DNA of 42,649 nt, from assembly GCA_903944895.1 (NCBI GenBank), contig CAJATL010000168.1:1-42649 (forward strand). The letters run 5' to 3'. The stretch comes from an uncultured Bacteroidota bacterium (lineage in GTDB: Bacteria > Bacteroidota > Bacteroidia > Bacteroidales > 4484-276). Each line of letters opens with the position of its first letter. Within the stretch, counting starts at the first letter, position 1. The notes below the pieces were generated by a model. That model did not search any database, was not told the DNA's origin, and saw nothing but the letters and a program-made list of their open reading frames with translations. The translations under genes and the position numbers were made by a program. Positions 17,722 to 40,308 of the stretch are shown here, one piece after another.

Positions 17722-20700
17722 TTATTTAACCACAACTTTCTCGATACGGAGAACGCTGTTGCCAGTAAACTTAATGAAGTAAACACCCTTAGGTTGGGAA
17801 GTGAGGTCGATTTCCTGAGAATTCAGTAATTTGCCTTCAACAACCTGCTGCCCTTGAGCATTCATAATTACATAATCGATATTGTTATCCATGCCATTAA
17901 CGCTGATATTGAAAATACCGGTTGATGGGTTTGGATAAATGGAGAGTCCGCTCAATGACGGGTTATTGATGCCGGTGATGCTCATGGTGAAGTTATCGAT
18001 AACCGATAAACCACTAACAGCAAACAAGCCATCAAAATTTGGTGATTGAACATTGTAGGTAACGTCAAGAATAAATTCTTCGTTGGTTGATGGACGCATC
18101 ACGCGGAAGTTGAGCATTTCGCCTTCGGCAAAACCATCAACATCATTTGTGGAGATATCATCAGCAAAGAGCGACATAGCCGTTGTGGTGCTGTTAACAA
18201 TCGTCATACCAGCGCACAATCCACCGTTTGTAAAGGCTCCGATAACGTCGCCGTTTACGAGCAATGAAGATGTGTTTTCGCTGAAGATAACCGTATGGCT
18301 TACGCCGGTATAGCTAACATCGTTCCAGTTGGTGATGTTTTCGCTGCGGACAGGCTTGTTGTAAGAATAACCCTTGTCGGCAACGCAAGCCGGGAAGGTG
18401 AATGTACCGGCAGCAGTCGTTTTAACATAGTAAGCTTTGCCAGGAACCAGCTCAAGCAAGGTATTGATGTTATAGGCAGGATAGTAAACACCGTTTCCGG
18501 CAATTTCAACTGCGATTACGAAACCATCAATATTGAGCAGTTCGGCTGCATCAACGTTACATGTTGAGAGTACAGGGAAAATGTTCCATCCGGCATTTAC
18601 AGCAACTGTTGTAGAAGCATAATCACCAGTAATGGTCAACGAAGCCTGGGCTGACATTTTGGTAAGATAACCGTGAGCATTTGAGAAATCACCCATGGTG
18701 TTGATACCGTAAGCTGGCCAGTAAAGATTTCCGAAGTACTGCGAAATGATCATATCAGCAGCAACAGGAGCTACAATTCCGGCAAAAGTTGCTTTTGCAG
18801 CAGGTGCAATGAATGATGACCATCCATTCCAGCCTAAAGGCATCGGGATAACCTGTGTTGGAGGTACAACTTCGTAAACTGAAACATCATCAATGTACCA
18901 GTCATCTGCATCATATCCCTGGTAAACAAAAGCAATGTGAACAACTTCACCAGCATAGGCTGATAAGTCGAGGTTCCATTCTGTCCAGGCAGCAACGCCT
19001 TCTCCCATTTCATAGAACTCTACAAAGTCGCCATCAGCAGGATCGGCACTTCCGGTCGAAATATAAACTGCTCTGTAAAAATAATATGTCGGGAATGCAA
19101 CATAATCCCAGAAGGATAATTGAGGTGCTGTTACTGTCGTTAAATCTAAACCAGGTGTAACCAACCAACCATCTTGTCCTAATGGATCAGCAGTACTATA
19201 ACCATGTTTTGCTGAATGTGTCGGAGAATGGGCATAGGTTGTCGAACTTGACCAAAATGTTCCCAAACCGTCGATGTCGTATGCATTCCAGCAAGCTGGC
19301 GGGAATACAACACCTTCGAAATCTTCACTAAATGGAAGACCTGATAATGGGCATGCTGTTGTGAAAGTATAAGGGCCAGCCCAGTCACTTTGCAAATCGA
19401 TGCAATCGTTCTGAACGTAGAATGAATAGGTTGTTGAAGCGTCTAATCCACCCAGTGTGTAAGGATTGGCAACAACACCAGGAACTAAAGTACCTTCACC
19501 TTGTACAAATCCAAATTCACCATATTCGATGTTCCAGAGTGTACCTGCTGAATTCCATCCAAGGTCGGCTGAATTCATGGTAAAATTGGTTGCTGTAAGC
19601 GCTGTTGGAATAGCACATGGAGGGCATTCGCCAATTCCTGCGTATAGTACAGTTCCTACAAGACCGGCGCCAATCGGGCTGACATTGTATAAAGTAGTGC
19701 CGGCAGGATCGATAATTTGTAATCCCATTTCTGCTGGCCACGAACCAGCAAAACTCCAGAATGCGTCGAAATCGAAACCGTCACAAATCGATACATATTG
19801 CGTAAAGGTTGCACCGGATGTAAATAAAGTTCCTAATGTAGCTACGACCAAACCGTTCTGACGAACCTGCATTAATCCACCATTCCAGCCGTCACCGTAA
19901 GTATCTTTCAGGATGAAGGTGTAATCACATGCGTATTCACACGAAGTAAGGAAGCTTACTGGGCCAGCCCATTCGCTGATGTAAGTTTCGCTGCAATTGG
20001 CCTGAACATAAACATCATAGCCGGTAAACGAATCGAGGTTGCCTAACACGTATGTTTTAGCTGCTAAATCAGGAACTAATGTACCTTCGGTGAGTGGGTC
20101 AAAACCAACCGGACCATAAACTAAATTCCAGGTGAGCTCGTTGCTTCCTGCAGCCCAGGTCAAGGTTGCTGAGTTTGTTGTAACATTGCTAACAGCAAGA
20201 TTTGTAGGAACAGGGCATTCAACAGTAACGCAAAGTTCGTTGGATTGTAAGGTTTCACCACCGGTAGCTGGAGCAATTACTTCACTTACTGTGTAGCAAT
20301 ATTCCGAACCCATCACAACATCACCATCATAATAGGTGTTACCATAAACATTGGCGATATCTGATCCATCACGGAATACATTGTAGTATGGAAGGAAAGC
20401 ATCAACTGCGGTAAGCTCAGCCACGTAATTATTATAATTACCACATGGATTTCCAACAAAAAGCTGGTTTCCAACCCATAGCCAGTATTTTCCCGGAGGT
20501 ACAGTTGCTGTAGCTACGGCAGTGCCGCAAGCCATTGCAGTTGCATCATCTAAAATGGTAAGACCAGCACACGCTGCATTTCCATCAATAATAAAGGCTA
20601 ATACAGGGAATTCGGCAGAAACTGTCCATGTTAATGTTTTTGGTGTCTCAATGGTCAATTCATACCAGTCGGTATCTCTCGAACCGCCATTGGCCCATGC

Positions 20701-23700
20701 TGAACCACAATAAACATCGCCAATCGAAATTGGAGTATAAGTAGGAATTGCAGGAGTTAAAGCATTGCAACCACTGTTTAAGTCCTGGCCGCAGAGTTCG
20801 CCTTCAGCTAATGAGCCAACCGGGCACTCAACAAGACAAGGTTCACCAAGTTCAATAGTGAAGTCAAATCCTGTAGTTTCCCAGGTATCAATCCAGGATA
20901 TCTTGTAGGTAATGCCTGCAACTGCATTAAAGGTAACGCCAGATGAAAACTCATAAGATACACAACCTTCGAGTAAATCATCATTTGCGGCAACTAACAA
21001 ACCACCGCAAGCATCATAAACTTCCAGGTCAGTATCAACTTCCTGTCCATCAAGACAGGAGGAAATTGTGATTGCTTTGTTTTCGGTAGGTGTAAATTCG
21101 AACCAGTAAGGTGCCTGAGGTGCAGTGTTTAAACCAACAACAGCAGGAATTGCTAATTCACAGGATTCACCGGGTTGAGGAGTATAATCTTCAACAGTGA
21201 AGTTAAAGGCTGCGATACAATTTGGTGTTGGCCAGGTATCCATCATAATGTAATAAGTACCGGCAGCAAGTTGCTGGGTAATGGTAACTCCACCTGCACT
21301 AACATTGGTGGCTGTTGCAATACAGGTTGCTCCCGGAGGGCATGCATCAGTAACCAACATTCCTGTCCAGGTATCGGTAGTAGTCATGGTAAACTTAATG
21401 GTTTTTGTTTCGGTAAGAACAAGCTGATAAATAATGTCCTCACCACCATCATAATATCCAAGACAGGTCGCATCGTAGGTATTACCGCGTCCGCAGGTAG
21501 TATTTGCATCGGTGTATGGTAATGCTCCGATTACGATAGGATTGGTGCAATCGTCGCCAATTGCTCTGCCTGATCCGTTTTCAACAACCATGGTAGGTCC
21601 GTGCAGTAACTCAGCTTTATTGGCTTTGGAATTCATTTGTTTTCCATTTGCCATATTTCCGGTATTGCCTTCAATTGCAGTGAGTGCCCTTGCAGCTTTT
21701 TCCTGATTACTTTCCCATTCAAGGAAAATTTCAAGACCGGCCTGTTCGGCTGTGATGAGTGTAGGAGGAGGCATAATACTAACATAGGCAGGAAGTGTAG
21801 CTGCCGATTCGCCCTGAGGATAAACTCCCTTAACGGTGTAGGCATAGTCGCCTGCTGCAAGGTTAAAATCATCATACGATAAGCCTGTTGAATTACCAAC
21901 CAAACTACCATCCCTATAGATGTTGTAACTGGTCAGAGGCCTTGTTCCGCCATTTTCGGTAATCGAAACTGTTGGAGGATCAACCAAAACTGGTCTTGAT
22001 ACCAATGTTCCGGTATTGATAACCTTTGAAGTATTGTTAACAACAGGCTGTGGCATTGAGGCACCTTTGGCGGCGTCAATATAAGCTTTAATAGCCCAGT
22101 TGTAAGTGAGAGCTACATTAAGTGCTGTAAGTGTTGTCCAGGCACCGTTCCAATACATCATATTACCCAAACCTTCATCCTGAGGACCGGCATCACAACC
22201 AGCAGGATAACCAGCAGTTGTATTAACATTGTATCCAACCCAGAGTTCTTTGGTGGCATCAATGGCAACTGGTGTTTGTAGTGTTAATTCATTCCATACG
22301 TCAGTAACAATTGATGCAGTAGATATTACCTCTGAGTAGATCAATGTTGGTGGAGATACACCTTCCCAAATCTTAATGGTATAGGTACAAACTGTTCCTG
22401 CTTCGCCGGGCCAGAATTGTACTTTCGTTACCGAACCACCTTCGAGAAGAGCCAGGTCGGCAGGTAAAAACCGTGCTGCAACATCAAAGTTGGCCGGGCC
22501 ATTAACACCGATCGAATTTGAAATGGCATCCTGCGAATAGGTAAGCCATGCAGGTGTAAATCCTCCCGGGCCAATCCAAGAAAGGTGAACATCAAAATAA
22601 TCAACAACATGGGCTTGTAAACCTGCCGGTGGAGTTAGATACAAGTTCAGTGCAAAGTTTTTTGTAGTCGTTAAGTTCGGAAGTACTACAACTGGTGCAG
22701 TCTGTGTTACATAAGCTTCCAATTCAGCTTTTACAGTGTAGTTTCCTTCAGGAACTTTTAAGAACTCATAAAAACCATTGGCATCTGTTGTATCACTTAA
22801 TGATCTGAGTTCGTCAGCAGTAATCACAACACCTTCCAAAGGCTGATTGTTGTATGCATCGGTAACAGTTCCATTAAGTGTTCCTTCACCTTTGGTACCA
22901 AATGTCCAGACTGTACCTAAAGTTGTACCGGCTGAGTTTTTGCTGGTAATCTGCCAGTTGTAGGTGGTTTGCTTTAATAATTTCAGATTTATTGAGGCAG
23001 CATCCCATGAATTACCGGCAAAGTATGGTGATTGATAAACAGTGGTCAACGGTGGTTTTGTGATCTTAATCCTGACCGAATCGGTTCTTGCTCCATTGGT
23101 CCAGCTAAATACAGGCTGGGTAGGAACAAGTGTTGAACCATTTGCAGGATATGGATTGGTAGCCACAGCAGGAGCTGTTAACCAGGCAACATTTAATGTT
23201 ACCGGAATTTCAATGCTTCCTTTTGCATCAGGAAGAGCGTTATGGTCAATGCTAATTATTGCTGACTGAGTTGAAGGGTCAATAAGTCCGGTAGCATCAA
23301 AATTAACATTAACATCTTGAGATTCACCCGGATTCACGGTTCCACTATAATTGTCCAGTGAAATCCATTTAGGACCAGCATTGGCAAGTTCTAATATCCA
23401 AACCACATCATTTTGTGATACACCCATAATTGACCATTTTCCAGGTACAGCACCGTCGGAAATTTCAAGGCCTCCTGAAGAAGTTGCTGCTGCTGTTATT
23501 CCGAAAGCAGCTAAATTAAATGTCTGTACAGTGGCACCCGTCATATCAACCTGAATAATAATATGTGTATTTGTGCCAGTTGCAGGTGTATAGGCCCAAA
23601 TAAACGGACCTCCTGGTGTAACATTGTCGTAAGCAAGTCCGCTGATTCCACCAAATGCAGGAGTAACTGTCTGTACTACTGCTCCTGAACGGTTAATTAG

Positions 23701-26700
23701 TCTGAATGGCCCCGTAAAACTTGCTGCAGTTACCCAGAAACCGTCATTATCAGGATCGTAAGCAATACCACGAACCTGACTACCTGTTGCAGTGATTGTA
23801 CTTACCAATGTTTTGGTTGTAAAATCCATCTGATAAATTACTGCACTGTTGGGTGAGCCATAAAAGTACTGACCATCATAAGCCAGATCTCTTGTAAGAC
23901 CAGCTCCCGGAATTGAGAATGATTCAATCCATGTTCCATCCAAATTGTATTTGTCATATTGATTTAAGTTCCACCTGCCTGTGTAAAGGAAATTACCATC
24001 AGATGCTACTGCGTATGTACCCGCAACATCATGAACAGGGAAAGAACCCAAAAGATCAAACACTTCATCAGTAGCCTCAGGTTTATAATTGGAAGGATTG
24101 GGATCAACTTCATCGGATGAAGCAACTGTTTTTGGTTGAGTTTGTTTTAATATCTGCAAGTTACTATGTCTGGGTTCTACTGGCAGAACTACTGCACTCC
24201 AATCCAAAGGACCTGTACCTCCAACGTTGGAGATCGAGAGCACCTGGCTTGCCGTTTGTTCCGGCTCAAGTGATTGAGTGAAAAGTAATGGACTTACCTG
24301 AATTTTTGGGAAAGTAAGTGCAAAATTCTGTGTGGTTGTTTGCCCTAAAACAATGGTTACCGGAGCAGTAGCAGTGAGGTATCCTGCTGCGCTGCAGGTA
24401 AAAGTGTAACTTCCAATGCCAATCACAGGAAAACTGTAATAACCTGTTGCATCAGTAGTAGCAGAATATACGCCAGATTGTACCACGGCGCCTGCAATTG
24501 GTCCTTTGGCTGTTGCAGAGGTAACATAACCTTCAAGGCTACCTATTTGTGCCTGTAGAACATTTACTTTGTAATCTTCGGTTTCGCCCCATGAGCTGAC
24601 AAGGCAAGGTCCGGTAGTTGAAGATTCTTTACAAACTACCCTCATTAGAGTATTTCCTAAGGTTGCCGTAATTGGAACGTTAATATTGGCATTAATGATG
24701 TGTGTGTTTGAACTGGCAAATGGCCAGATAATTGACTCTTCACCCGGGTCTGTTAATACACCATTCTGATTCCAGTCGAAGTAAACCCGTACATCATGTC
24801 CATAAGCAGTACCTGCGCACTCAGTGACCTGAACAGAGATTGCTGCTGCAGAAGCGGCTGTAATATCTGTGGCTGCAATTGAAGTAAAATTACTGTACAA
24901 ATCTGCTGTACCTGTTGCAGTACCTTGCGAGCCTGTAAGGCTGGCACATGCACTTGTATTATTCAGGGTGGTGCCGAAGGTAACCGCCGTAATGTCTTCA
25001 TCACCTGCACTGGCTGCGCCGGATGGGCAATAAGATGCAAAAAGATCAGAATTACCCGTAACGGCAACATTGCCGGTAGCTCCACCGCCAACATGGGTAA
25101 CGTTTCCGGTGTAATAAGTCATTGGTGCAGTTGGTGCACATCTGACATAGACTGTAGCTGCAGCCAAAGTTCCTGAAGTGTATGGAATATTCACGGTATT
25201 ACCAAATCCTGAACCTGAGGCAAGTGATACCTGGAAATTTGCAGGTGCGGTAACTACGATGTTGGATGGAAATCCGGTAAGATTGGCTCCGGCAATAGTA
25301 TAACTCTGTGGAGGTGAATATCCGCTAACAGGTCCGTAGCCGCAAGCAATCGTTGTTTCAGGAATAAAAGTAAAGAAAGGTGCTAATGGAGTAGCAGCTA
25401 TGGTAATTTGATCCACATTGATACTCAATTGATCACCGATACTGAAACAATGCCAACCTACGTAATAGGTACCTGTTGTTGCAGGAGTGAAGGAACCGGT
25501 CCCCAATGTAAAAGCTGCTTTGTAAAAGCTAACGTCGCTGAATATTGCCGGGCTTGTCATTCCAGCTGCAGTTGGTGCATCGCCCCACTTAACTTCAAGG
25601 CTTTCTAAATAGGTTGCCGAACCTCCTTTATAGTAAAATTTAACATCGTAACTCTGGCCACCAGTTAAAGCCAAACCCTGAGTAATGTACCAGTCGTTCT
25701 GCGTTACGCCGGCGGCACTGTATCCAATGCGAAGATTGTTAAGTCCATTATAGGGAGTTGTGGTCGAATTAACCCATTTAACAAGGTCGGCATTTGCGTC
25801 AATAATAACTCCGCAACCAACTGCAGGCACAGTGTAACTATCAAAGTTTTCGACAAACGGGACTGTAGTGGCACCACAAACAGTGGTAAAACTCCATATT
25901 GCTCCATTTGTAACCAAAGCATTATAATACTCAATAACCTGCCATTGATAAGCAGAATTGCTGGTAAGATTGGAATAGGTGTATGATCCGGTAGCACCTG
26001 CAGTGCCGCCTGTAACAACCTGTGTCATGTTTCCGGTAGGTCCAAATTTAAGGTCATAGGTAAGTGTGTTTGCTCCAAAAGTCCAGGTAATATTACCATT
26101 TAAGGGTATTCCGGTTGCCGCATTAGCAGGGTTGGGATTTGAAGGAGGAACTGGTTGATTTGGATCTGCAGGAGCAAAAGTGAAAGTTTGTCCTACTATT
26201 GGAATAATTCCTGGTGCAAATGTGCAGGTTGCAGCATTGCTGGCTCCGGCTACTGTAGCAGCCCAGTTGGTAGTTGTGCTTCTGTTATTATAATCAGCAT
26301 TTGTTGCCCCGCGCAATCCAACTTGTAAGGTTGCAGTTGTACTTGTTGTTGCAATAGTACCGCCATAAACAAATGTAATGGCTCCGGTTACGGTGTTCAA
26401 TCTGGCTTGAAAGCTCAGGATATGTGTTGTGAAGGTAGTTCCATACCTTCTTATATCCTGCCATTGAACAACAATCTCGTTACCAACTGCTGTGTTGTAC
26501 GAAATTTTTGGAGAGCCGGAGGCTGCATTTTGAAGGTCGTTGGCATATGGGGCAATTGCCCCCGGATAAGTTCCAGTGCCGCTAATAGGTACGTAACCGG
26601 AAGGTGCAACAGCACCTAATGTCAACCAGCCGTTTGCCGATACATACATGGTTGTGTAGGCGACTCCGTTGTAAGTAAAACTTGGAATGGTAATGGCTGC

Positions 26701-26865
26701 AGAGACGTTATCATCAAATGTCGCCGACCACAGCACTGTTTCAGAAGCAAGGGCAGTGTAGGCCCCCGATGAACCCGCAAAGGTGTATGTGCTCACCGCT
26801 GCGTTTGTGTTCCAGGCGAGCGCCAGGAACAGCATTAACAAAATCAAACTTGTAACTCTTTTCAT
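17722..26865 (-). CDS. Giant multidomain T9SS-secreted protein (3047 residues)
   Basis: It starts with a signal peptide (KRVTSLILLMLFLALAW, cleavage near NAA). Approximate layout: choice-of-anchor/MAM-like beta-sandwich (335–490); GEVED-type domain (610–770, FDWNQNG, WGETEDYKV); carboxypeptidase-regulatory-like domain (773–850); WD/NHL-like propeller segment (925–1145); BACON/Fn3-like parts (1160–1320); second carboxypeptidase-regulatory-like domain (1325–1400); Fn3-like units; Cys-containing prepeptidase-like domains (1768–2130); a DTYGDGWNGG domain (about 2305); Fn3; and a second MAM-like domain (2508–2670). The C-terminus (about 2965–3047) is a type A T9SS sorting domain: LSIYPNPSTGIFNISV, then YVIMNAQGQ and GVYFIKF. 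I recognise no protease or glycosidase core, so adhesion or a matrix role is inferred. The gene stands alone, with a good promoter upstream and a terminator downstream. Confidence 0.9.
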   Translation of the reverse strand: MKRVTSLILLMLFLALAWNTNAAVSTYTFAGSSGAYTALASETVLWSATFDDNVSAAITIPSFTYNGVAYTTMYVSANGWLTLGAVAPSGYVPISGTGTYPGAIAPYANDLQNAASGSPKISYNTAVGNEIVVQWQDIRRYGTTFTTHILSFQARLNTVTGAITFVYGGTIATTSTTATLQVGLRGATNADYNNRSTTTNWAATVAGASNAATCTFAPGIIPIVGQTFTFAPADPNQPVPPSNPNPANAATGIPLNGNITWTFGANTLTYDLKFGPTGNMTQVVTGGTAGATGSYTYSNLTSNSAYQWQVIEYYNALVTNGAIWSFTTVCGATTVPFVENFDSYTVPAVGCGVIIDANADLVKWVNSTTTPYNGLNNLRIGYSAAGVTQNDWYITQGLALTGGQSYDVKFYYKGGSATYLESLEVKWGDAPTAAGMTSPAIFSDVSFYKAAFTLGTGSFTPATTGTYYVGWHCFSIGDQLSINVDQITIAATPLAPFFTFIPETTIACGYGPVSGYSPPQSYTIAGANLTGFPSNIVVTAPANFQVSLASGSGFGNTVNIPYTSGTLAAATVYVRCAPTAPMTYYTGNVTHVGGGATGNVAVTGNSDLFASYCPSGAASAGDEDITAVTFGTTLNNTSACASLTGSQGTATGTADLYSNFTSIAATDITAASAAAISVQVTECAGTAYGHDVRVYFDWNQNGVLTDPGEESIIWPFASSNTHIINANINVPITATLGNTLMRVVCKESSTTGPCLVSSWGETEDYKVNVLQAQIGSLEGYVTSATAKGPIAGAVVQSGVYSATTDATGYYSFPVIGIGSYTFTCSAAGYLTATAPVTIVLGQTTTQNFALTFPKIQVSPLLFTQSLEPEQTASQVLSISNVGGTGPLDWSAVVLPVEPRHSNLQILKQTQPKTVASSDEVDPNPSNYKPEATDEVFDLLGSFPVHDVAGTYAVASDGNFLYTGRWNLNQYDKYNLDGTWIESFSIPGAGLTRDLAYDGQYFYGSPNSAVIYQMDFTTKTLVSTITATGSQVRGIAYDPDNDGFWVTAASFTGPFRLINRSGAVVQTVTPAFGGISGLAYDNVTPGGPFIWAYTPATGTNTHIIIQVDMTGATVQTFNLAAFGITAAATSSGGLEISDGAVPGKWSIMGVSQNDVVWILELANAGPKWISLDNYSGTVNPGESQDVNVNFDATGLIDPSTQSAIISIDHNALPDAKGSIEIPVTLNVAWLTAPAVATNPYPANGSTLVPTQPVFSWTNGARTDSVRIKITKPPLTTVYQSPYFAGNSWDAASINLKLLKQTTYNWQITSKNSAGTTLGTVWTFGTKGEGTLNGTVTDAYNNQPLEGVVITADELRSLSDTTDANGFYEFLKVPEGNYTVKAELEAYVTQTAPVVVLPNLTTTKNFALNLYLTPPAGLQAHVVDYFDVHLSWIGPGGFTPAWLTYSQDAISNSIGVNGPANFDVAARFLPADLALLEGGSVTKVQFWPGEAGTVCTYTIKIWEGVSPPTLIYSEVISTASIVTDVWNELTLQTPVAIDATKELWVGYNVNTTAGYPAGCDAGPQDEGLGNMMYWNGAWTTLTALNVALTYNWAIKAYIDAAKGASMPQPVVNNTSKVINTGTLVSRPVLVDPPTVSITENGGTRPLTSYNIYRDGSLVGNSTGLSYDDFNLAAGDYAYTVKGVYPQGESAATLPAYVSIMPPPTLITAEQAGLEIFLEWESNQEKAARALTAIEGNTGNMANGKQMNSKANKAELLHGPTMVVENGSGRAIGDDCTNPIVIGALPYTDANTTCGRGNTYDATCLGYYDGGEDIIYQLVLTETKTIKFTMTTTDTWTGMLVTDACPPGATCIATATNVSAGGVTITQQLAAGTYYIMMDTWPTPNCIAAFNFTVEDYTPQPGESCELAIPAVVGLNTAPQAPYWFEFTPTENKAITISSCLDGQEVDTDLEVYDACGGLLVAANDDLLEGCVSYEFSSGVTFNAVAGITYKISWIDTWETTGFDFTIELGEPCLVECPVGSLAEGELCGQDLNSGCNALTPAIPTYTPISIGDVYCGSAWANGGSRDTDWYELTIETPKTLTWTVSAEFPVLAFIIDGNAACAGLTILDDATAMACGTAVATATVPPGKYWLWVGNQLFVGNPCGNYNNYVAELTAVDAFLPYYNVFRDGSDIANVYGNTYYDGDVVMGSEYCYTVSEVIAPATGGETLQSNELCVTVECPVPTNLAVSNVTTNSATLTWAAGSNELTWNLVYGPVGFDPLTEGTLVPDLAAKTYVLGNLDSFTGYDVYVQANCSETYISEWAGPVSFLTSCEYACDYTFILKDTYGDGWNGGLMQVRQNGLVVATLGTLFTSGATFTQYVSICDGFDFDAFWSFAGSWPAEMGLQIIDPAGTTLYNVSPIGAGLVGTVLYAGIGECPPCAIPTALTATNFTMNSADLGWNSAGTLWNIEYGEFGFVQGEGTLVPGVVANPYTLGGLDASTTYSFYVQNDCIDLQSDWAGPYTFTTACPLSGLPFSEDFEGVVFPPACWNAYDIDGLGTFWSSSTTYAHSPTHSAKHGYSTADPLGQDGWLVTPGLDLTTVTAPQLSFWDYVAFPTYYFYRAVYISTGSADPADGDFVEFYEMGEGVAAWTEWNLDLSAYAGEVVHIAFVYQGYDADDWYIDDVSVYEVVPPTQVIPMPLGWNGWSSFIAPAAKATFAGIVAPVAADMIISQYFGNLYWPAYGINTMGDFSNAHGYLTKMSAQASLTITGDYASTTVAVNAGWNIFPVLSTCNVDAAELLNIDGFVIAVEIAGNGVYYPAYNINTLLELVPGKAYYVKTTAAGTFTFPACVADKGYSYNKPVRSENITNWNDVSYTGVSHTVIFSENTSSLLVNGDVIGAFTNGGLCAGMTIVNSTTTAMSLFADDISTNDVDGFAEGEMLNFRVMRPSTNEEFILDVTYNVQSPNFDGLFAVSGLSVIDNFTMSITGINNPSLSGLSIYPNPSTGIFNISVNGMDNNIDYVIMNAQGQQVVEGKLLNSQEIDLTSQPKGVYFIKFTGNSVLRIEKVVVK

Positions 26866-27080: not shown

Positions 27081-27357
27081 TTTAAAAAAAATTTATTGAA
27101 AGCCAAATTGACAATTCTGCTCAATCATGAGTAAAAATCACTCTTTTGGCTAAACTTTTTTACTGATACTATTTTTCGCAAAATGTTAACTATAAGTTAA
27201 ATTACTATTTGTAAATCAATCAAAAGTGATTGGTCTGTAATGATTCTGGCTCTAATTTTGGTTCTCCAGTAAATCCGTTAAAAATCATTAAAAAGTTTTA
27301 AAATCATCATTTACCGAATGCAAAAAGACACTTTTTTGCACAAAAATAAGCAAGCTG

Positions 27358-27472
27358 ACATCTAAAGACAAAACACAAAAAGCAAAACTCAAAAAGCAAA
27401 ACTCAAAAAACAAAAAACAAAAAACAAAACTCAAAAAACAAAACTCAGATTGCAAAGCGCAGAGCGCCCAGC
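27358..27472 (+). repeat. A-rich heptanucleotide repeat
   Basis: Seven-bp words AAAAAGC, AAAACTC and AAAAAAC follow one another in register, ending in AAAGCGC AGAGCGC words. The same family recurs at 32255–32310 (inside the end of the NusG-like gene) and 42315–42365. Confidence 0.8.
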
Positions 27473-27477
27473 AGTGA

Positions 27478-28800
27478 TCAAACTGCCACCTGCCCACTGC
27501 CGACTGCCTACTGCCACCTGCCGACTACCTGCCCACTGGCGACTGACTACTCCTTAAGCCTTACGCTTTACGCCTCACAACTTCTGACTTCCGACTGGCA
27601 ACTGGCGACTGCCAACTCCTCACTCCTTAAGCCTTACGCCTCACGCCTTACGCCTGACAACTCCCGACTTACGACTTCTGACTTCTGACTTCTGACTGCC
27701 CACTGCCCACTGGCGACTGCCAACTCCTTACGCCTTACGCCTTACGCCTCACAACTTCCGACTCCCGACTCCCGACTGCCACCTGCCCACTGGCGACTGC
27801 CTACTCCTTACTCCTTACTCCTTACGCCTGACAACTCCCGACTTCCGACTTCCGACTTCCGACTTCTGACTTCCGACTTCCGACTGCCCACTGCCCACTG
27901 GCGACTGCCAACTCCTTACGCCTTACGCCTTACGCCTTACGCCTCACAACTTCTGACTCCCGACTCCCGACTCCCGACTTCCGACTTCTGACTTCCGACT
28001 GCCCACTGCCCACTGGCGACTGCCAACTCCTTACTCCTTACGCCTTACGCCTCACCACTTCTGACTCCCGACTCCCGACTACCACCTGCCCACTGGCGAC
28101 TGCCAACTTCTGACTCCCGACTCCCGACTCCCGACTGCCACCTGCCCACTGGCGACTGCCTACTCCTTACTCCTTACTCCTTACGCCTGAAAACTCCCGA
28201 CTTCTGACTTCCGACTCCCGACTTCCGACTTCCGACTTCTGACTTCCGACTGCCCACTGCCCACTGGCGACTGCCAACTCCTTACGCCTTACGCCTCACG
28301 CCTTACGACTTCTGACTCCCGACTCCCGACTGCCACCTGCCCACTGGCGACTGCCAACTTCTGACTCCCGACTCCCGACTTCCGACTTCCGACTTCTGAC
28401 TTCCGACTGCCAACTTCTGACTCCTTACTCCTTACGCTTTACGCCTCACAACTTCTGACTTCCGACTCCCGACTGCCACCTGCCCACTCCCAACTGCCAA
28501 CTCCTTACGCCTTACGCCTTACGCCTCACAACTTCTGACTCCCGACTCCTGACTCCCGACTCCCGACTCCCGACTGGCAACTGGCAACTGCCGACTCCTC
28601 ACTCCTTACGCCTCACAACTTCTGACTTCTGACTCCCGACTCCTGACTCCCGACTCTCGTCTGCCCACTGGCAACTGGCAACTGCCGACTCCTCACTCCT
28701 TACGCCTAACGCCTAACGCCTTACGCCTCACAACTTCTGACTCCCGACTTCCGACTTCCGACTTCTGACTTCCGACTGCCCGCTCCCCACAACTGACTGA
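27478..28800 (+). repeat. Large heptanucleotide repeat array (consensus CTNCCNA)
   Basis: About 1.3 kb of 7-bp words such as CTCCCGA, CTTCCGA, CTTCTGA, CTGCCCA, CTGGCGA, CTGCCAA, CTCCTTA and CGCCTTA. They are ordered into larger cycles: TGGCGACTG recurs at 27711, 27791, 27899, 28014, 28094, 28150, 28265 and 28345. The intervals are 80, 108, 115, 80, 56, 115 and 80. Cycles containing a CACAAC junction are 7n+3 long; the one lacking it (56) is exactly 7n. There are no unique spacers and no coding potential. Confidence 0.9.
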
Positions 28801-28814
28801 CGGCTGGCTACTGC

Positions 28815-28855
28815 CAACTTTGCTCTGCTCTCTGCGCTTTGCGCTCTGCCCTCTT
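28815..28855 (-). repeat. GC-rich heptads, complement of the AGAGCGC words
   Basis: TCTGCGC, TTTGCGC and TCTGCCC words form the inverse complement of the AAAGCGC/AGAGCGC words at about 27455–27468. The large array is thus bracketed by related words in inverted orientation. Confidence 0.6.
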
Positions 28856-28896
28856 CAAAATAACTACGCTAAAGTCAGAAATGTAATCAGAAGTTT

Positions 28897-28927: not shown

Positions 28928-29674
28928 ATGGTGATGGAAGTTGATATTTTTATTCCTTGTTTTATTGATCAGTTTTATCCCGAAACAGGCTTTAACATGG
29001 TTAAAGTACTCGAAAAATCAGGGGTGAAGGTACATTATAACACTAACCAGACCTGCTGCGGACAAATGGCCTTTAACAACGGTTTCTGGGACGATGCGCG
29101 CAACCTGGGAATTAAGTTTATCGGTGACTTTGCAGGAAACAGGCCGGTAGTAGGGCCTTCGGCATCTTGTATTGGTTTTATTAAAAACTATTACGAAAAG
29201 CTTTTTTATAATTCCGCCTGGCATCTCGAGTACAAAAAGCTGAAGGATAATATTTACGAAATCACCGATTTTATGGTTAACGTCCTCAAAATCGTTGATG
29301 TTGGTGCGACCTTCGATGCAAAAGTTACCTACCATGATTCCTGTTCTGCTTTGCGCGAATACCGCCTGAAGGACGAACCAAGGATTTTACTTTCGAAAGT
29401 TAAGGGACTTACACTCATCGAGATGGAAGAAACCGATGTCTGTTGTGGATTCGGTGGTACTTTTGCTGTGAAACATGAACCAATTTCAACAGCTATGGCT
29501 GAGCAAAAAATACATCACGCCCTTCAAACCGGAGCTGAATACATCGTTTCCACCGATTCGTCCTGTCTCATGCACATGGATGCCTACATCAAAAAACAAA
29601 ATCTGCCTATCAAGGTGATACATATTATTGATCTATTGGCACAGGGGATGGAGAATAGGAGAATGGGAGAATAG
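28928..29674 (+). CDS. CCG-domain Fe–S oxidoreductase subunit (LutA/YkgE-like)
   Basis: 248 residues with two cysteine-rich CCG domains: PCFIDQFYP and QTCCGQMAFNNG (C43–C44), then DSCSALREYRL near 140 and DVCCGFGGTFAV near 175. STDSSCLMHMD near 213 supplies the last Cys. This matches LutA/YkgE, which works with LutB and LutC in L-lactate oxidation, or similar heterodisulfide reductase-like subunits. No lutB or lutC is adjacent, so the partner must be elsewhere. ATG at 28928 or 28934 is possible; the family usually starts close to the second. The last residues (MENRRMGE) and the stop codon are encoded by the octamer repeat that follows, so the natural C-terminus has been replaced or extended by repeat DNA. 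Confidence 0.82.
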   Translation: MVMEVDIFIPCFIDQFYPETGFNMVKVLEKSGVKVHYNTNQTCCGQMAFNNGFWDDARNLGIKFIGDFAGNRPVVGPSASCIGFIKNYYEKLFYNSAWHLEYKKLKDNIYEITDFMVNVLKIVDVGATFDAKVTYHDSCSALREYRLKDEPRILLSKVKGLTLIEMEETDVCCGFGGTFAVKHEPISTAMAEQKIHHALQTGAEYIVSTDSSCLMHMDAYIKKQNLPIKVIHIIDLLAQGMENRRMGE

Positions 29675-29816
29675 GAGAATAGGAGAATAGGAGAATGTAA
29701 CAATTCGACAATTCGACAATTCGATAATGGAAGAATCGAAAGATGGAAAGATGGAAGAATGGAAAAATGTAACAATTCGACAATTCGACAATTTGATAAT
29801 GGAAGAATGGAAAAAT
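29649..29816 (+). repeat. Octamer repeats (GGAGAATA, ACAATTCG, GGAAGAAT)
   Basis: Three successive 8-bp word families: GGAGAATA from within the end of the CCG-domain gene, ACAATTCG from about 29698 and 29767, and GGAA(A/G)GAT/GGAAAAAT between them. The period is strictly 8, unlike the 7-bp arrays. Confidence 0.8.
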
Positions 29817-29857
29817 GGAATGTTGAGGCGTTAGCCGAAATCCCGCTTCGGCGGGAG
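29817..29857 (-). repeat. 41-bp hairpin element, copy 1
   Basis: This is the reverse complement of the elements at 31555–31595 and 32452–32492 with one mismatch. It contains CCCGCTTCGGCGGG, a five-pair stem closed by a C(TTCG)G tetraloop, then GCCGAAAT and GAGGCGT segments. Confidence 0.85.
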
Positions 29858-29940
29858 ATGAATGGGAGAATGGAAGAATGGAAGAATGGAAGATTGGAAA
29901 GATGGAAGAATGGAAGAATGGAATAGTGGAAGCATGGAAA
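29858..29940 (+). repeat. Octamer repeat (GGAAGAAT)
   Basis: GGAAGAAT-like words with an 8-bp period, continuing the family interrupted by the hairpin element. Confidence 0.75.
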
Positions 29941-29959
29941 ATTGTTACAAATTGCTTAC

Positions 29960-30212
29960 TGATGACTGGCAGCTTACGTCTTACGCCATATGTCTTACTC
30001 CTCATGACTGCCTACTGGCGACTTCTTCCGCCTTATGCCTTACGCCTGCCAACTGCCAACTGGCAACTGGCAACTTCTTCCGCCTTCCGCCTTCCGACTG
30101 CCCACTGCCCACTGCCCACTGCCAACTGGCGACTTCTTCCGCCTTATGCCTTACGCCTGCCTACTGCCAACTGCCAACTGCCGACTTCTTCCGCCTTACA
30201 CCTCATGACTAA
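29960..30212 (+). repeat. Heptanucleotide repeat tract
   Basis: CTGCCAA, CTGGCAA, CTGCCCA, CGCCTTA and CTTCTTC words in the same orientation as the large array. It contains a near-duplicate block beginning with CTTCTTCCGCCTTATGCC at about 30021 and 30133. Confidence 0.75.
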
Positions 30213-30232
30213 TGCTTAAACACGAATACTAA

Positions 30233-32451: not shown

Positions 32452-32492
32452 CTCCCGCCGAAGCGGGATTTCGGCTTACGCCTCAACATTCC
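32452..32492 (+). repeat. 41-bp hairpin element, copy 3
   Basis: Same 41 bases as 31555–31595, flanked on both sides by ATTCCA-type octamers. Confidence 0.85.
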
Positions 32493-32564
32493 ACTATTCC
32501 ATTGTCGAATTGTCGAATTTTCAAATTATCACATTCTTCCATTCTTCCACCATTCCACTCTTCC
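32493..32564 (-). repeat. Octamer repeats running up to the cysC start codon
   Basis: ATTCCACT, TGTCGAAT and ATTCTTCC words (inverse complement of the GGAAGAAT/ACAATTCG families) fill the leader directly up to the ATG at 32565. Confidence 0.75.
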
Positions 32565-33173
32565 ATGACTTCACCAACCAACATCCATCCGGTTTTCGAC
32601 CAGATTCTGACACGTCAGGATAAAGAAAAACTTTTAAGGCAACATTCGAAGGTTGTCTGGTTTTCGGGACTCTCCGGTGCCGGCAAAACTACGCTGGCTA
32701 AAGAACTCGAAGTAATTCTTCATAATAAGGGCTATCTTACCCAGATTCTCGACGGCGACAATATCCGGACAGGGATCAACAATAATCTGGGCTTTAGCGA
32801 CGACGACCGTAAAGAGAACATCCGCCGTATCGCCGAAGTTTCCAAACTACTGGTTTTTAGCGGAGTTATTGCGCTTAACAGTTTTATCAGTCCTACCAAA
32901 GAAATCCGGGACCTGGCAATCGGCATCATCGGAAAAGAGAATTTTATCGAAGTTTTTGTTGATGCTCCCCTCGAAGTCTGCGAACAACGCGACGTAAAAG
33001 GACTCTACAAAAAAGCCCGGGACGGAAAAATCAAGAATTTTACCGGGATTGATGCTCCCTTTGAGCGGCCTGAAACACCCGACATCATCATAAATACAGC
33101 AGAACTTAGTATTGCCGAAAGCCTCGACAGACTTTTGGCGCTCGTTTTACCAAAAATTACCTATTCATTATGA
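32565..33173 (+). CDS. cysC: Adenylyl-sulfate (APS) kinase
   Basis: 202 residues from the ATG at 32565; an upstream in-frame extension to 32502 only translates repeat DNA. The enzyme phosphorylates APS to PAPS. All canonical motifs are present: Walker [12 protein letters not shown] (35–45), [17 protein letters not shown] (63–79), the phosphorylated-Ser region [11 protein letters not shown] and [20 protein letters not shown]. The C-terminus resembles other stand-alone CysC proteins. Its stop overlaps the cysD start by 4 bp (33170–33173), so the two are coupled. A second, degenerate APS-kinase domain is fused to CysN downstream, which suggests this copy carries the activity. Confidence 0.95.
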
Positions 33174-34160: not shown

Positions 34161-34170
34161 TGTAACAGTG

Positions 34171-34536
34171 ATGCAAGAATCAGAAAATAGGCATGTTTAC
34201 GATTTGGAGGAGCGGACATTTCAATTTGCAAAGGCAGTTCGGCTATTTATTAAAAAATTACCACGAACCATTGCAAATATTGAAGATGCAAAACAGTTGG
34301 TAAAATCTTCCGGTTCAACAGGAGCCAACTATATTGAAGCAAATGAATCACTAAGCCCAAAAGATTTTCTAATGAGGGTCAAGATTTCCAGGAAGGAGGT
34401 GAAAGAATCTGCCTATTGGCTTAGGTTGATTCATGAAACCAACGAATTTGATGCGGATGATGAAATTGTATCGTTAATGAACGAAGCAGGAGAATTATTA
34501 AAAATCTTATCTGCGATCATCAATAAACACAAGTAG
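34171..34536 (+). CDS. Four-helix-bundle protein (S23 / 23S rRNA intervening-sequence protein family)
   Basis: 121 residues from the ATG at 34171 (a GTG one codon upstream is also in frame). The pattern LEERTFQFAKAVRLFIKKLP, then SSGSTGANYIEANESLSPKDFLMRVKISRKEVKESAYWLRL is characteristic of the small S23/four-helix-bundle family. The gene is enclosed between cysD and cysN and flanked on both sides by heptad repeats, so it looks like an inserted cassette. Members occur inside 23S rRNA insertions, near diversity-generating retroelements and scattered in Bacteroidota; the molecular role is not known and I do not assign one. Confidence 0.85.
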   Translation: MQESENRHVYDLEERTFQFAKAVRLFIKKLPRTIANIEDAKQLVKSSGSTGANYIEANESLSPKDFLMRVKISRKEVKESAYWLRLIHETNEFDADDEIVSLMNEAGELLKILSAIINKHK

Positions 34537-36857: not shown

Positions 36858-37883
36858 ATGAAAATAATTAATCCACTTTACGACAAAGCCTTCAAGTATT
36901 TGATGGAAAACAACAAGTTAGCCAAAAAAATACTGTCGGTTATTTTAGATGTGGAAGTTATTGAAGTAGCTTTAAGTCAGCAGGAAACCACCCTTCCCGA
37001 CGAAAGAAGAGGACTCACGCTATTTCGTCTTGATTTCAAAGCCATAATCAAACAAGCTGATGGAAGCCGGAAAACTGTTTTAATCGAACTTCAGAAATCC
37101 AAATACCCCACCGACATACAAAGGTTCAGGAATTATCTGGGCTCCAGTTATCTGGCAAAGAACCGGGAAATCGAGGACAAATCCATTGTAGCCGAAGATA
37201 AGCCCGCCGAATACCAATCCATTTATCCCATCATCGCCATTTATATCCTTGGCTATAATCTCGACGATTTGCCTTACATGGCTGTTACCGTGAACCGCGA
37301 TGTGATCAATTCGGTGAGCAAGCAAAAAATTGAAGTATCAAGTTTTTTTGTGGAGCACCTCACGCATCAGTCGCACATCATACAGGTGAGGCGTTTACCT
37401 GAAAAGCGTCAGACCCTTTTGGAGAAATTCTTTGTGTTGTTCAATCAGGCCTGGTGCACCGAAAATAATTTCATCATCGACCTGCAAAACATTCCCGAAG
37501 AGTTTAAGGATGTTGTAAAATACCTTCAGGGACCGGTCATGGATGATAATTTCCGTCGCCAGCTGGAAGCCGAAGAACAGTTAGACGCCATTTTTGATGC
37601 ACAGGAGGCAAAGTATCTTAAAATGATAGCCGAAGTCCTCGACGAAAAAGAAGCAGCAGAGGAAAGAGAACAGGAAGCGAAAAAATCAAAAGAAGCGGCC
37701 GAAGAAAGAGAACAGGAAGAGCGCAAACAAAAAGAAACAGCAAACAAACAAAAAGAAGCCGCCGAAGAAAGAGAAAGACAAGCGCTCTGCAAACTCGCAC
37801 GGCAGATGAAAAATTATGAAGCATCAAAAGATGATATAGTAAGAGAAACGGGATTATCAATTGAAGATATTGAAAAATTGTAG
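36858..37883 (+). CDS. Rpn-family PD-(D/E)XK nuclease, copy 1
   Basis: 341 residues. The N-terminal catalytic core has D59 in LFRLDFKAII and E77-x-Q79 in VLIELQKSK, the PD-(D/E)XK pattern of the TIGR01784/PDDEXK_2 family often labelled 'recombination-promoting nuclease/putative transposase'. The middle part (about 120–230) is the family's conserved region. From about residue 245 a charged coiled coil (AEEREQEAKKSKEAAEER) made of repeated codons leads to a small C-terminal motif, DDIVRETGLSIEDIEKL. It is not flanked by inverted repeats and is not a typical transposase. An almost identical paralogue lies at 39325–40308. Confidence 0.85.
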   Translation: MKIINPLYDKAFKYLMENNKLAKKILSVILDVEVIEVALSQQETTLPDERRGLTLFRLDFKAIIKQADGSRKTVLIELQKSKYPTDIQRFRNYLGSSYLAKNREIEDKSIVAEDKPAEYQSIYPIIAIYILGYNLDDLPYMAVTVNRDVINSVSKQKIEVSSFFVEHLTHQSHIIQVRRLPEKRQTLLEKFFVLFNQAWCTENNFIIDLQNIPEEFKDVVKYLQGPVMDDNFRRQLEAEEQLDAIFDAQEAKYLKMIAEVLDEKEAAEEREQEAKKSKEAAEEREQEERKQKETANKQKEAAEERERQALCKLARQMKNYEASKDDIVRETGLSIEDIEKL

Positions 37884-39324: not shown

Positions 39325-40308
39325 ATGAGAATAATTAATCCACTTTACGACAAGGCCTTCAAGTATTTGATGGAGAACAACAAGTTAGCCAAAAAAATAC
39401 TCTCGGTTATTCTGGATGTGGAAGTTGTTGAAGTAGCCTTAAGCCAGCAGGAAACCACCCTTCCCGATGAAAGGAGAGGGCTGACACTTTTTCGTCTCGA
39501 TTTCAAAGCCATCATCAAACAAGCCGACGGAAGCCGGAAAACTGTTTTAATCGAACTTCAAAAATCCAAATATCCGACCGACATACAACGGTTCAGGAAT
39601 TATCTGGGCTCCGGTTACCTGGCAAAAAACCGGGAAATCGAGGATAAGTCCATTGTAGCCGAAGACAAGCCCGCCGAATACCAATCCATTTATCCCATCA
39701 TCGCCATTTATATCCTTGGCTATAATCTGGACGATTTGCCTTACATGGCCGTTACGGTAAACCACGATGTGATCAATTCGGTGAGCAAGCAAAAAATTGA
39801 AGTATCAAGTTTTTTTGTGGAGCACCTCACACATCAGTCGCACATTATACAGGTGAGGCGTTTACCTGAAAAGCGTCAGACCCTTTTGGAGAAATTCTTT
39901 GTGTTGTTCAATCAGGCCTGGTGTACCGACAACAATTTCATCATCGACCTGCAAAACATTCCCGAAGAATTTAAAGATGTTGTAAAATATCTTCAGGGGC
40001 CGGTGATGGATGACAATTTCCGTCGCCAGCTGGAAGCTGAAGAACAGCTAGACACCATTTTTGATGCACAGGAGGCAAAGTATCTCCGTAAGATTGCCGA
40101 AGCCCTTGATCAAAAAGCAGCCGCTGAAGAAAGAGAATTAGAGGAGTGGAAACAAAAAGAAGAAGCAAACAAACAAAAAGAAGAAGCCAATAAACAAAAA
40201 GAAATGCTTGCAATAAAACTTGCCCGGCAAATGAAAAAATATGGTATCCCCTTTTCTGAAATATCAAAAGAAACGGGTTTATCAGTCGAATATATCGGGA
40301 AATTGTAG
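39325..40308 (+). CDS. Rpn-family PD-(D/E)XK nuclease, copy 2
   Basis: 327 residues, co-linear with the protein at 36858–37883. I count six substitutions over roughly the first 250 residues. Catalytic D59 and E77-x-Q79 are kept. The proteins part in the charged coiled coil: this copy has shorter repeats (KQKEEANKQKE, twice) and ends PFSEISKETGLSVEYIGKL, a related but distinct C-terminal motif. The conserved core with variable tail and the shared upstream promoter box point to recent duplication followed by change in the repetitive C-terminal part. Confidence 0.85.
   Translation: MRIINPLYDKAFKYLMENNKLAKKILSVILDVEVVEVALSQQETTLPDERRGLTLFRLDFKAIIKQADGSRKTVLIELQKSKYPTDIQRFRNYLGSGYLAKNREIEDKSIVAEDKPAEYQSIYPIIAIYILGYNLDDLPYMAVTVNHDVINSVSKQKIEVSSFFVEHLTHQSHIIQVRRLPEKRQTLLEKFFVLFNQAWCTDNNFIIDLQNIPEEFKDVVKYLQGPVMDDNFRRQLEAEEQLDTIFDAQEAKYLRKIAEALDQKAAAEERELEEWKQKEEANKQKEEANKQKEMLAIKLARQMKKYGIPFSEISKETGLSVEYIGKL

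Follow-up and report, generated by a model that had tools for sequence, protein, structure and literature searches.

The window, the whole 42,649-bp stretch of DNA analysed here, is one contig (C168) of a 7.17-Mb genome assembled in 424 contigs (G000). Its main feature is a degenerate heptamer array that fills the 2,062-bp gap between two divergent genes, one encoding a very large protein with a T9SS sorting tail and the other a protein with a CCG cysteine-rich domain (Table 1). From its known distribution, the sorting tail presumably points to a Bacteroidota host. The array ends ~70 bp before the CCG-domain gene, and between the two, at ~28897, lies a TAnnTTTG-like box that we take to be the Bacteroidetes -7 promoter motif. 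As this box comes after the array, the predicted promoter of the CCG-domain gene looks spared.

Table 1. Coordinates of the genes, arrays and array subunits in the window.
Feature	Position	Strand	Details
Heptamer array right after lpxD-like stop codon	7294..7462	.	
3047-aa protein gene	17722..26865	-	Por_Secre_tail (T9SS sorting), GEVED, fn3, CarboxypepD_reg
A-rich heptamer flank, (AAAAACAAAACTCA)n, period 7/14	27364..27447	+	TRF; lag-7 stretch from 27350
GCAAAGCGCAGAG edge word, left	27452..27464	+	
Main degenerate heptamer array (ACTNNNN / ACGCCTN words)	27478..28820	+	Autocorrelation, word parse
Long cycle, 108 bp	27603..27710	+	Kin: 27791-27898, 27899-28013, 28150-28264
Short cycle, 80 bp	27711..27790	+	One of three; starts 27711, 28014, 28265
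251-bp superblock (115+80+56), copy 1	27899..28149	+	91% ungapped identity with copy 2
251-bp superblock, copy 2	28150..28400	+	TRF period 251 across 27846-28474
GCAAAGCGCAGAG edge word, right	28830..28842	-	Inverted relative to left
CCG cysteine-rich domain (PF02754) protein gene	28928..29674	+	
Octamer arrays (GGAGAATA, ACAATTCG, GAATGGAA), next gap	29633..29954	+	TRF
Second heptamer array, same vocabulary, before GFO_IDH_MocA oxidoreductase gene	30012..30215	+	TRF, lag 7
Heptamer array right before cysN-like start codon	34622..34675	.	

Other repeats are scattered through the same DNA. Octamer arrays coexist with the heptamers at 1439-1517, 29633-29833, 29843-29954 and 32476-32576 of the window and at 19-142 of locus L257 (GAATGGAA, ACAATTCG and alike), and a further contig of this genome, L102, is octamer-rich. 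The perfect palindrome CCCGATAGCTATCGGG is found at 1514, 31606, 31665 and 34609, with near-copies close to 40480 and 42399; across 59 loci of the genome (633 kb, mostly array-selected) it has 22 sites in 13 loci, 15 of them no more than 150 bp away from an array of lag 7 or 8, and it resembles a short palindromic element of the dispersed kind. A second dispersed element, with the core CCCGCCGAAGCGGGATTTCGGC, occurs on either strand at 29825, 31557 and 32454 and at loci L055, L059 and L072, and is 87-100% alike over 23-52 bp among several array flanks. Two mostly near-identical ORFs, 36858-37883 (341 aa) and 39325-40308 (327 aa), lie either side of a third ORF and end in charged EEREQEE/KQKE-like tails; the 341-aa ORF had no Pfam match at E <= 0.001, and we take both to resemble a transposase-associated nuclease family.

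Internal organization of the array

Autocorrelation of 27478-28820 confirmed the 7-bp period reported in the initial annotation, with a dominant lag-7 peak of 0.753 (lag 14, 0.685) against a highest value of 0.356 at lags 4-29 in 500 first-order Markov shuffles. Other peaks include 80, 87-129, 188-195, 251, 547-575 and 662-697 bp. The limits first given for the array, 27478-28800, were too narrow, since the array is bordered by A-rich heptamers and by words of the GCAAAGCGCAGAG type, and the periodic stretch extends, by the lag-7 threshold, from 27350 to 28858. There are 11 copies of GCAAAGCGCAGAG in the genome, including those at both array edges, and none of its reversed-letter control. The + strand of the array is pyrimidine-rich (68% C+T, GC skew -0.50). 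When parsed from AC to AC (n=158), its commonest words are ACTCCCG (26), ACTTCTG (21), ACTTCCG (20), ACTCCTT (16) and ACGCCTT (12). It had been described as consisting almost entirely of words of the form CTNCCNA and variants; CTNCCNA itself accounts for fewer than half (ACTNCCN before A, 71/158), the remainder being ACTTCTG, ACTCCTT, ACGCCTN, ACTGGCR and others.

The array is organized at three nested levels, from 7-bp words through cycles of 80 and 108-115 bp to a 251-bp superblock. The TGGCGACTG anchors that delimit the cycles are present at all eight positions listed previously (27711, 27791, 27899, 28014, 28094, 28150, 28265 and 28345), and two more, at 27537 and 27603, were missed earlier. 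Together the anchors define nine intervals, of 66, 108, 80, 108, 115, 80, 56, 115 and 80 bp, all of them 7n+3 save 56. Pairwise identity is 0.94-0.95 among the three 80-bp cycles and 0.81-0.90 among the four long cycles (108, 108, 115 and 115 bp), while a fourth 80-bp stretch, 28345-28424, the end of which was set without an anchor, is 0.74-0.78 identical to the first three. Because the superblock is composed of 115+80+56 bp, the exact-7n 56-bp cycle is the end part of its first copy. Identical words are adjacent in 37/176 cases in the main array (mean 12.3 and maximum 24 in 2000 order shuffles) and in 144/754 cases in other ACT-type arrays of the genome, against 80.3 expected; neighbouring words that are unlike differ by 1.7 bases, random pairs by 2.4. 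The earlier proposal of growth by slippage of 7-mers together with duplication of larger units fits this pattern of identical neighbours, similar cycles (0.81-0.95) and near-repeated superblocks.

A 3-bp slip in register had been tied to a CACAAC junction thought to be present in every 7n+3 cycle. Every interval but 56 is indeed 7n+3, but literal CACAAC occurs in only two of the six such cycles listed previously, the other four carrying GACAAC, CACCAC, GAAAAC or TTACGAC at its place. Runs of ACGCCT in the main array are left through the triplet ACA, ACC, AAA or ACG. In other arrays of the genome the exit from such runs is +3 (mod 7) at 34 of 45 junctions, in 20 of 27 arrays, and the remaining 11 junctions have distances of 0, 2, 4 or 6. 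The entry from ACT words into ACGCCT, for which ACTTACGCC or alike is the usual sequence, is 4 mod 7 in 43 of 51 cases there, 0 in six and 1 in two. An entry of 4 and an exit of 3 make 7, so that these arrays show no net slip. In the main array the exit is +3 in 12/12 and the entry, via ACTCCTTACGCC, is 0 mod 7 in 11/11; its net 3 bp therefore stem from the entry, since the exit is as elsewhere and the entry is 0 instead of 4. The slip is thus real and was assigned to the wrong junction: a CACAAC-type exit is usual genome-wide, and the odd part is the entry, ACTCC/TTACGCC (the slash marking the junction). The register change at this entry would have arisen once and then been copied within blocks.

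Related arrays in this and other genomes

A BLAST search with 390 bp of the array gave at least 52 matches in its own genome (40 of 125 candidates scored), five within the main array and at least 47 outside. A repeat-selected set of 41 loci (414 kb; 32 BLAST-match stretches, eight edge-word stretches and the window) contained 80 lag-7 and 30 lag-8 arrays, against one of each in one Markov shuffle. Twenty further contigs were picked by number and the 18 without long N runs (219 kb) were used, with N-masked L099, L104, L108 and part of L111 excluded. They held nine lag-7, five lag-8 (on a single contig) and five lag-14 arrays, with 0-1 at every other lag from 4 to 15, and lag 7 was the commonest under four threshold settings (9, 8, 7 and 6 arrays).

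These 59 loci, 41 repeat-selected or the window and 18 number-picked, have 89 lag-7 arrays in all, with tandem ACGCCTT pairs in 21 and tandem ACTTCCG pairs in 20. In this largely repeat-selected sample 74% of array bases fall outside ORFs of at least 90 aa, compared with ~15% of all bases. Nineteen of the 89 arrays lie more than half inside such ORFs and nine at locus ends; when these 28 were left out and the background was drawn from the same loci, observed and expected arrays per gap type were 37/38.3 for tandem, 9/13.9 for divergent and 15/8.8 for convergent gaps (three-way chi-square p = 0.048). The main array, in a divergent gap, thus belongs to the class in which arrays are scarcer. Within tandem gaps, 28/37 arrays are closer to the upstream stop than to the downstream start, the first start codon being taken as the ORF start.

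Transitions between words in the main array are found again elsewhere in the genome in 66/397 cases (0.166; 500 run shuffles, 0.088 +/- 0.013, maximum 0.127), and long-range word order is weakly common between loci, with 8/55 arrays above all 40 shuffles where ~1.3 would be expected. Comparison of 173 array flanks with repeats masked gave 28 cross-locus matches (E <= 1e-4). Five matching flanks that were inspected contained either CCCGATAGCTATCGGG palindromes or one of two elements, CCGAAGCGGGATTTCGGC and GGGCTTTAGCCC, with no common array flank. The idea that the arrays are parts of a larger mobile element was rejected, as the flanks are mostly mismatched.

When the main array was used as a query against 29 relatives, four were matched at E <= 0.001 (G001, G002, G003 and G008), so the vocabulary is narrow. 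A pattern of four ACTGNNN units was found in 116/296 genomes of the window's phylum, and five units in at least 120 stretches from many phyla. The reversed-letter control of this pattern was also frequent, for example 208+227 in G142 and 117+141 in G150, and the commonest dominant 4-mers of at least 111 lag-7 arrays lying away from ACTGNNN matches were ATTA, AAAA, CTTC and GTTA. A universal ACTG core was accordingly rejected, the control being frequent and ACTG not being among the 20 commonest dominant 4-mers listed. Since the dominant 4-mers differ and the control is frequent, it is the period that is shared, not a core word. The 120 loci (L135-L254) span cyanobacteria, Chloroflexi, Planctomycetes, Acidobacteria, Bacteroidetes and other groups. 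Away from the ACTGNNN matches they have at least 111 lag-7 arrays, at least 68 at lag 14, a multiple of 7, and at least 19 at the next lag (lags 4 to 15); they were selected for heptamers, so these counts are no unbiased survey of lags.

Four array sites of the window were compared with the corresponding sites in relatives, a sample from one window that is too small to give a rate. In G008, G002, G006 and G004 a secreted-type gene is divergent from the CCG-domain gene; the gap between the two measures 766, 408, ~398 and 535 bp, respectively, against the 2,062 bp here, and a lag-7 or lag-8 array was absent from all four gaps. By sequence similarity one of them, G008, has a clear counterpart of the 3047-aa gene: its divergent neighbour matches the N-terminus of that protein (41% over 241 aa), and its CCG protein is 77% identical to the one in this genome. 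The neighbours in G002, G006 and G004 (319-367 aa compared) best match inner repeated domains of the 3047-aa protein (42-51% over 93-155 aa) and are likely to be its true counterparts. The G003 contig starts inside an octamer array ~200 bp upstream of its CCG gene, no counterpart of the CCG gene was found in G001, G005 or G007, and the same search matched in G012-G015, with no array at the G014 and G015 loci.

The gap between the CCG and oxidoreductase genes measures 558 bp in this genome, where it holds octamers and ACTGCCA-type heptamers, and 186 bp in G008, where the heptamers are GGTTCGA and CCAAACG; in G002, G006 and G003 the matched parts lie 41-66 bp apart and the gap is free of arrays. 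After lpxD, the 169-bp array of this genome is represented in G001, a member of the same genus, by about four like words seen by eye and below threshold, and no array was called at the loci of seven other genomes, that of G005 extending only ~250 bp downstream. Words of the TTTTGAA/TTGTAAT type precede the cysN-like gene in both this genome and G001, at different lengths, while G005 has CTCCATG/CTCCAAG-type and G002 GCGCCAT-type heptamers at this position and G003 and G004 have none. We note that a 122-aa ORF (34168-34536), presumably of the four-helix-bundle type, lies between the cysD-like and cysN-like genes in the window, whereas no such ORF was observed in G001 over the 700 bp that precede its cysN-like gene.

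The comparison of the four sites therefore indicates that arrays are gained and lost, that their length changes within a genus and that the period can outlast the words across genera. A tentative and rather doubtful extension is that array sites may be conserved across the genera of the family while each genome replaces the words they contain, much as eukaryotic satellites evolve in concert. The same picture at these four sites would, however, also result if permissive sites had gained arrays independently. Word replacement, if true, would imply that bacteria have a genome-wide copying or homogenising process that keeps the period and not the sequence.

Origin and possible function

We propose that the array is probably non-coding heptamer satellite DNA which grew by slippage and block duplication, was spread by copying and is tolerated where promoters are spared. 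Units would be gained singly or a few at a time by slippage, and the polymerase may prefer units of ~7 nt, following the polymerase-contact hypothesis as it is given in the available part of Rehm (2015; PMC4692102). Block duplication would have produced the 80-115 bp cycles and set the 251-bp superblock in tandem. New sites may be seeded by words and junctions copied from arrays of the same genome through illegitimate recombination or template switching, which we infer because the vocabulary and the junction register are common to many loci. The shared transitions and junction register, the weak long-range order and the unlike flanks would fit the copying of small pieces between sites better than they fit a mobile unit whose ends are fixed. 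Points against the proposal are the weak long-range order, the narrow vocabulary and the siting of the array in the gap class where arrays are scarcer; nor does neutral slippage by itself account for one vocabulary at many sites. An array would persist wherever promoters are undamaged, and need have no function.

One alternative, which we regard as unlikely, is that the array has a regulatory or insulating role: it would keep the divergent promoters apart or, as has been suggested for TAACTGA repeats, offer a binding site to a protein or RNA-binding factor. Its location between divergent genes, with its end ~70 bp before the CCG-domain gene and the putative promoter spared, would suit such a role, and a translational role has been suggested for Beggiatoaceae heptamers (MacGregor, 2015; PMC4679880, available part). 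The chief predicted fold is a 4-bp hairpin, TGGC-GACT-GCCA, and one of four folded pieces was somewhat more stable than its shuffles (z -2.0); the remaining three, however, gave z values of -1.1, -1.2 and -0.2. Also against regulation, the divergent pair occurs without an array in four relatives, arrays run antisense to tandem genes (12) about as often as sense (10), and at two shared sites different genera carry different words. The window contained no Rfam match at gathering score. A coding role was rejected, as all six frames have 8-23 stops each and the longest open run is 100 codons. Given the lack of an Rfam match, the weak folding, the even orientation, the stops in all frames and the array-free relatives, the observations at the array require no function, and it may still have an insulating effect.

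Another possibility is that a dedicated enzyme makes or moves the arrays, by a transposition process or through a reverse transcriptase or telomerase-like activity. Such an enzyme would account for the fixed period and shared vocabulary, and seeding by it is consistent with like words and junction register at many sites, with the inverted GCAAAGCGCAGAG edge words at both sides of the array, which outnumber their control in the genome, and with the satellite transposition proposed for heptamer-derived families in the available part of PMC6749651. We nevertheless consider it distinctly unlikely, as the array flanks are mostly unlike each other and words within a run shift stepwise, which is unexpected from synthesis on a single template. 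It is very unlikely that the array is an assembly artefact or a mis-joined repeat. This is a draft genome in 424 contigs and the G003 contig begins in an octamer array, but the similarity of both G008 proteins indicates that the flanks belong together, and like arrays occur at many other loci; the exact copy number as assembled could be wrong. Repeat expansion in a hypermutator that had lost mismatch repair is hardly credible, its one point in favour being a repeat-rich genome, for a full-length MutS without a stop is encoded here (893 bits, over cut-off), as MutS over cut-off is in 11 of the 13 genomes searched, this one included; seven-nucleotide loops are thought to escape MutS.

Comparison with known heptamer repeats

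The array has the general properties of bacterial heptamer arrays, a 7-bp period above chance, many dispersed copies and a mainly intergenic location, and is one more case of this known and poorly explained class. A survey of bacterial repeats made in 2007, reportedly by Mrazek et al., is relevant here. As cited in the available part of Rehm (2015; PMC4692102), it found heptamers to be over-represented. Bacteroidota are among the phyla with a high density of short repeats, according to the part of PMC12699852 available to us.

The initial annotation likened the array to the STRR sequences of cyanobacteria. STRR words (CCCCAGT/CCCCAAT, TTGGTCA and CAACAGT) are few and fixed. The resemblance stands as one of kind, since the STRRs of Calothrix and Nostoc also have a 7-bp tandem unit and dispersed copies; it does not extend to the words, of which 27350-28858 contained neither tandem pairs (any rotation or strand) nor single copies, or to the host, which here is probably Bacteroidota and not a cyanobacterium. 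The word set of the array is, in addition, degenerate and nested in blocks of 80-251 bp. Three heptanucleotides are mentioned for Calothrix in the same part of Rehm (2015; PMC4692102).

TAACTGA repeats, known from Beggiatoaceae, cyanobacteria and five Bacteroidetes, and reaching 43 copies in arrays of several Bacteroidetes and cyanobacteria (MacGregor, 2015; PMC4679880), were likewise absent from 27350-28858, both as tandem pairs and as single words. In the available part of that paper, the one match of a literature search on intergenic Bacteroidetes heptamer repeats, they resemble the present family in forming intergenic arrays mixed with other heptamers and in that the gaps of relatives are shorter, with no obvious repeats. 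They differ in consisting of one word and, in Guaymas Maribeggiatoa, in lying mostly just upstream of start codons, and no nested cycles of the present kind are described in that part.

As far as the available parts of the respective papers go, three further families share some of these features. The GGGAATC / GGGGA(C/T)T repeats found in Xanthomonas and Nostoc (PMC4692102) are also dispersed, mainly non-coding and scarce between divergent genes, and at a given site relatives differ in their length and sequence; unlike the present array, they prefer four units and form G-quadruplexes. No G-quadruplex motif (four G3 runs, loops 1-7) was found on either strand of our array, and its - strand has 23 two-G quadruplex-type motifs. 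The (GATAGRA)n repeats of Chloroflexus aurantiacus (PMC6749651) are a species-specific heptamer family across one genome for which copying between sites has been suggested, but have a single consensus word. The GGGACCG elements of Geobacter metallireducens (PMC2700814) comprise 49 dispersed heptamer tandems between and within genes, but have four units and one consensus and are proposed to be regulatory RNA.

In the accessible parts of the literature on bacterial heptamer repeats, neither the nesting of heptamer cycles nor the replacement of words at shared sites was found described. This case adds to the class a superblock, a slip reassigned to another junction, a vocabulary used genome-wide, related sites that are free of arrays and a lead, namely that at shared sites the period outlasts the sequence. 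Dozens of arrays in this genome draw on one vocabulary, related sites occur both with and without an array, and blocks are nested; combined with strain-level data, this material could allow slippage, block duplication and between-site copying to be told apart.
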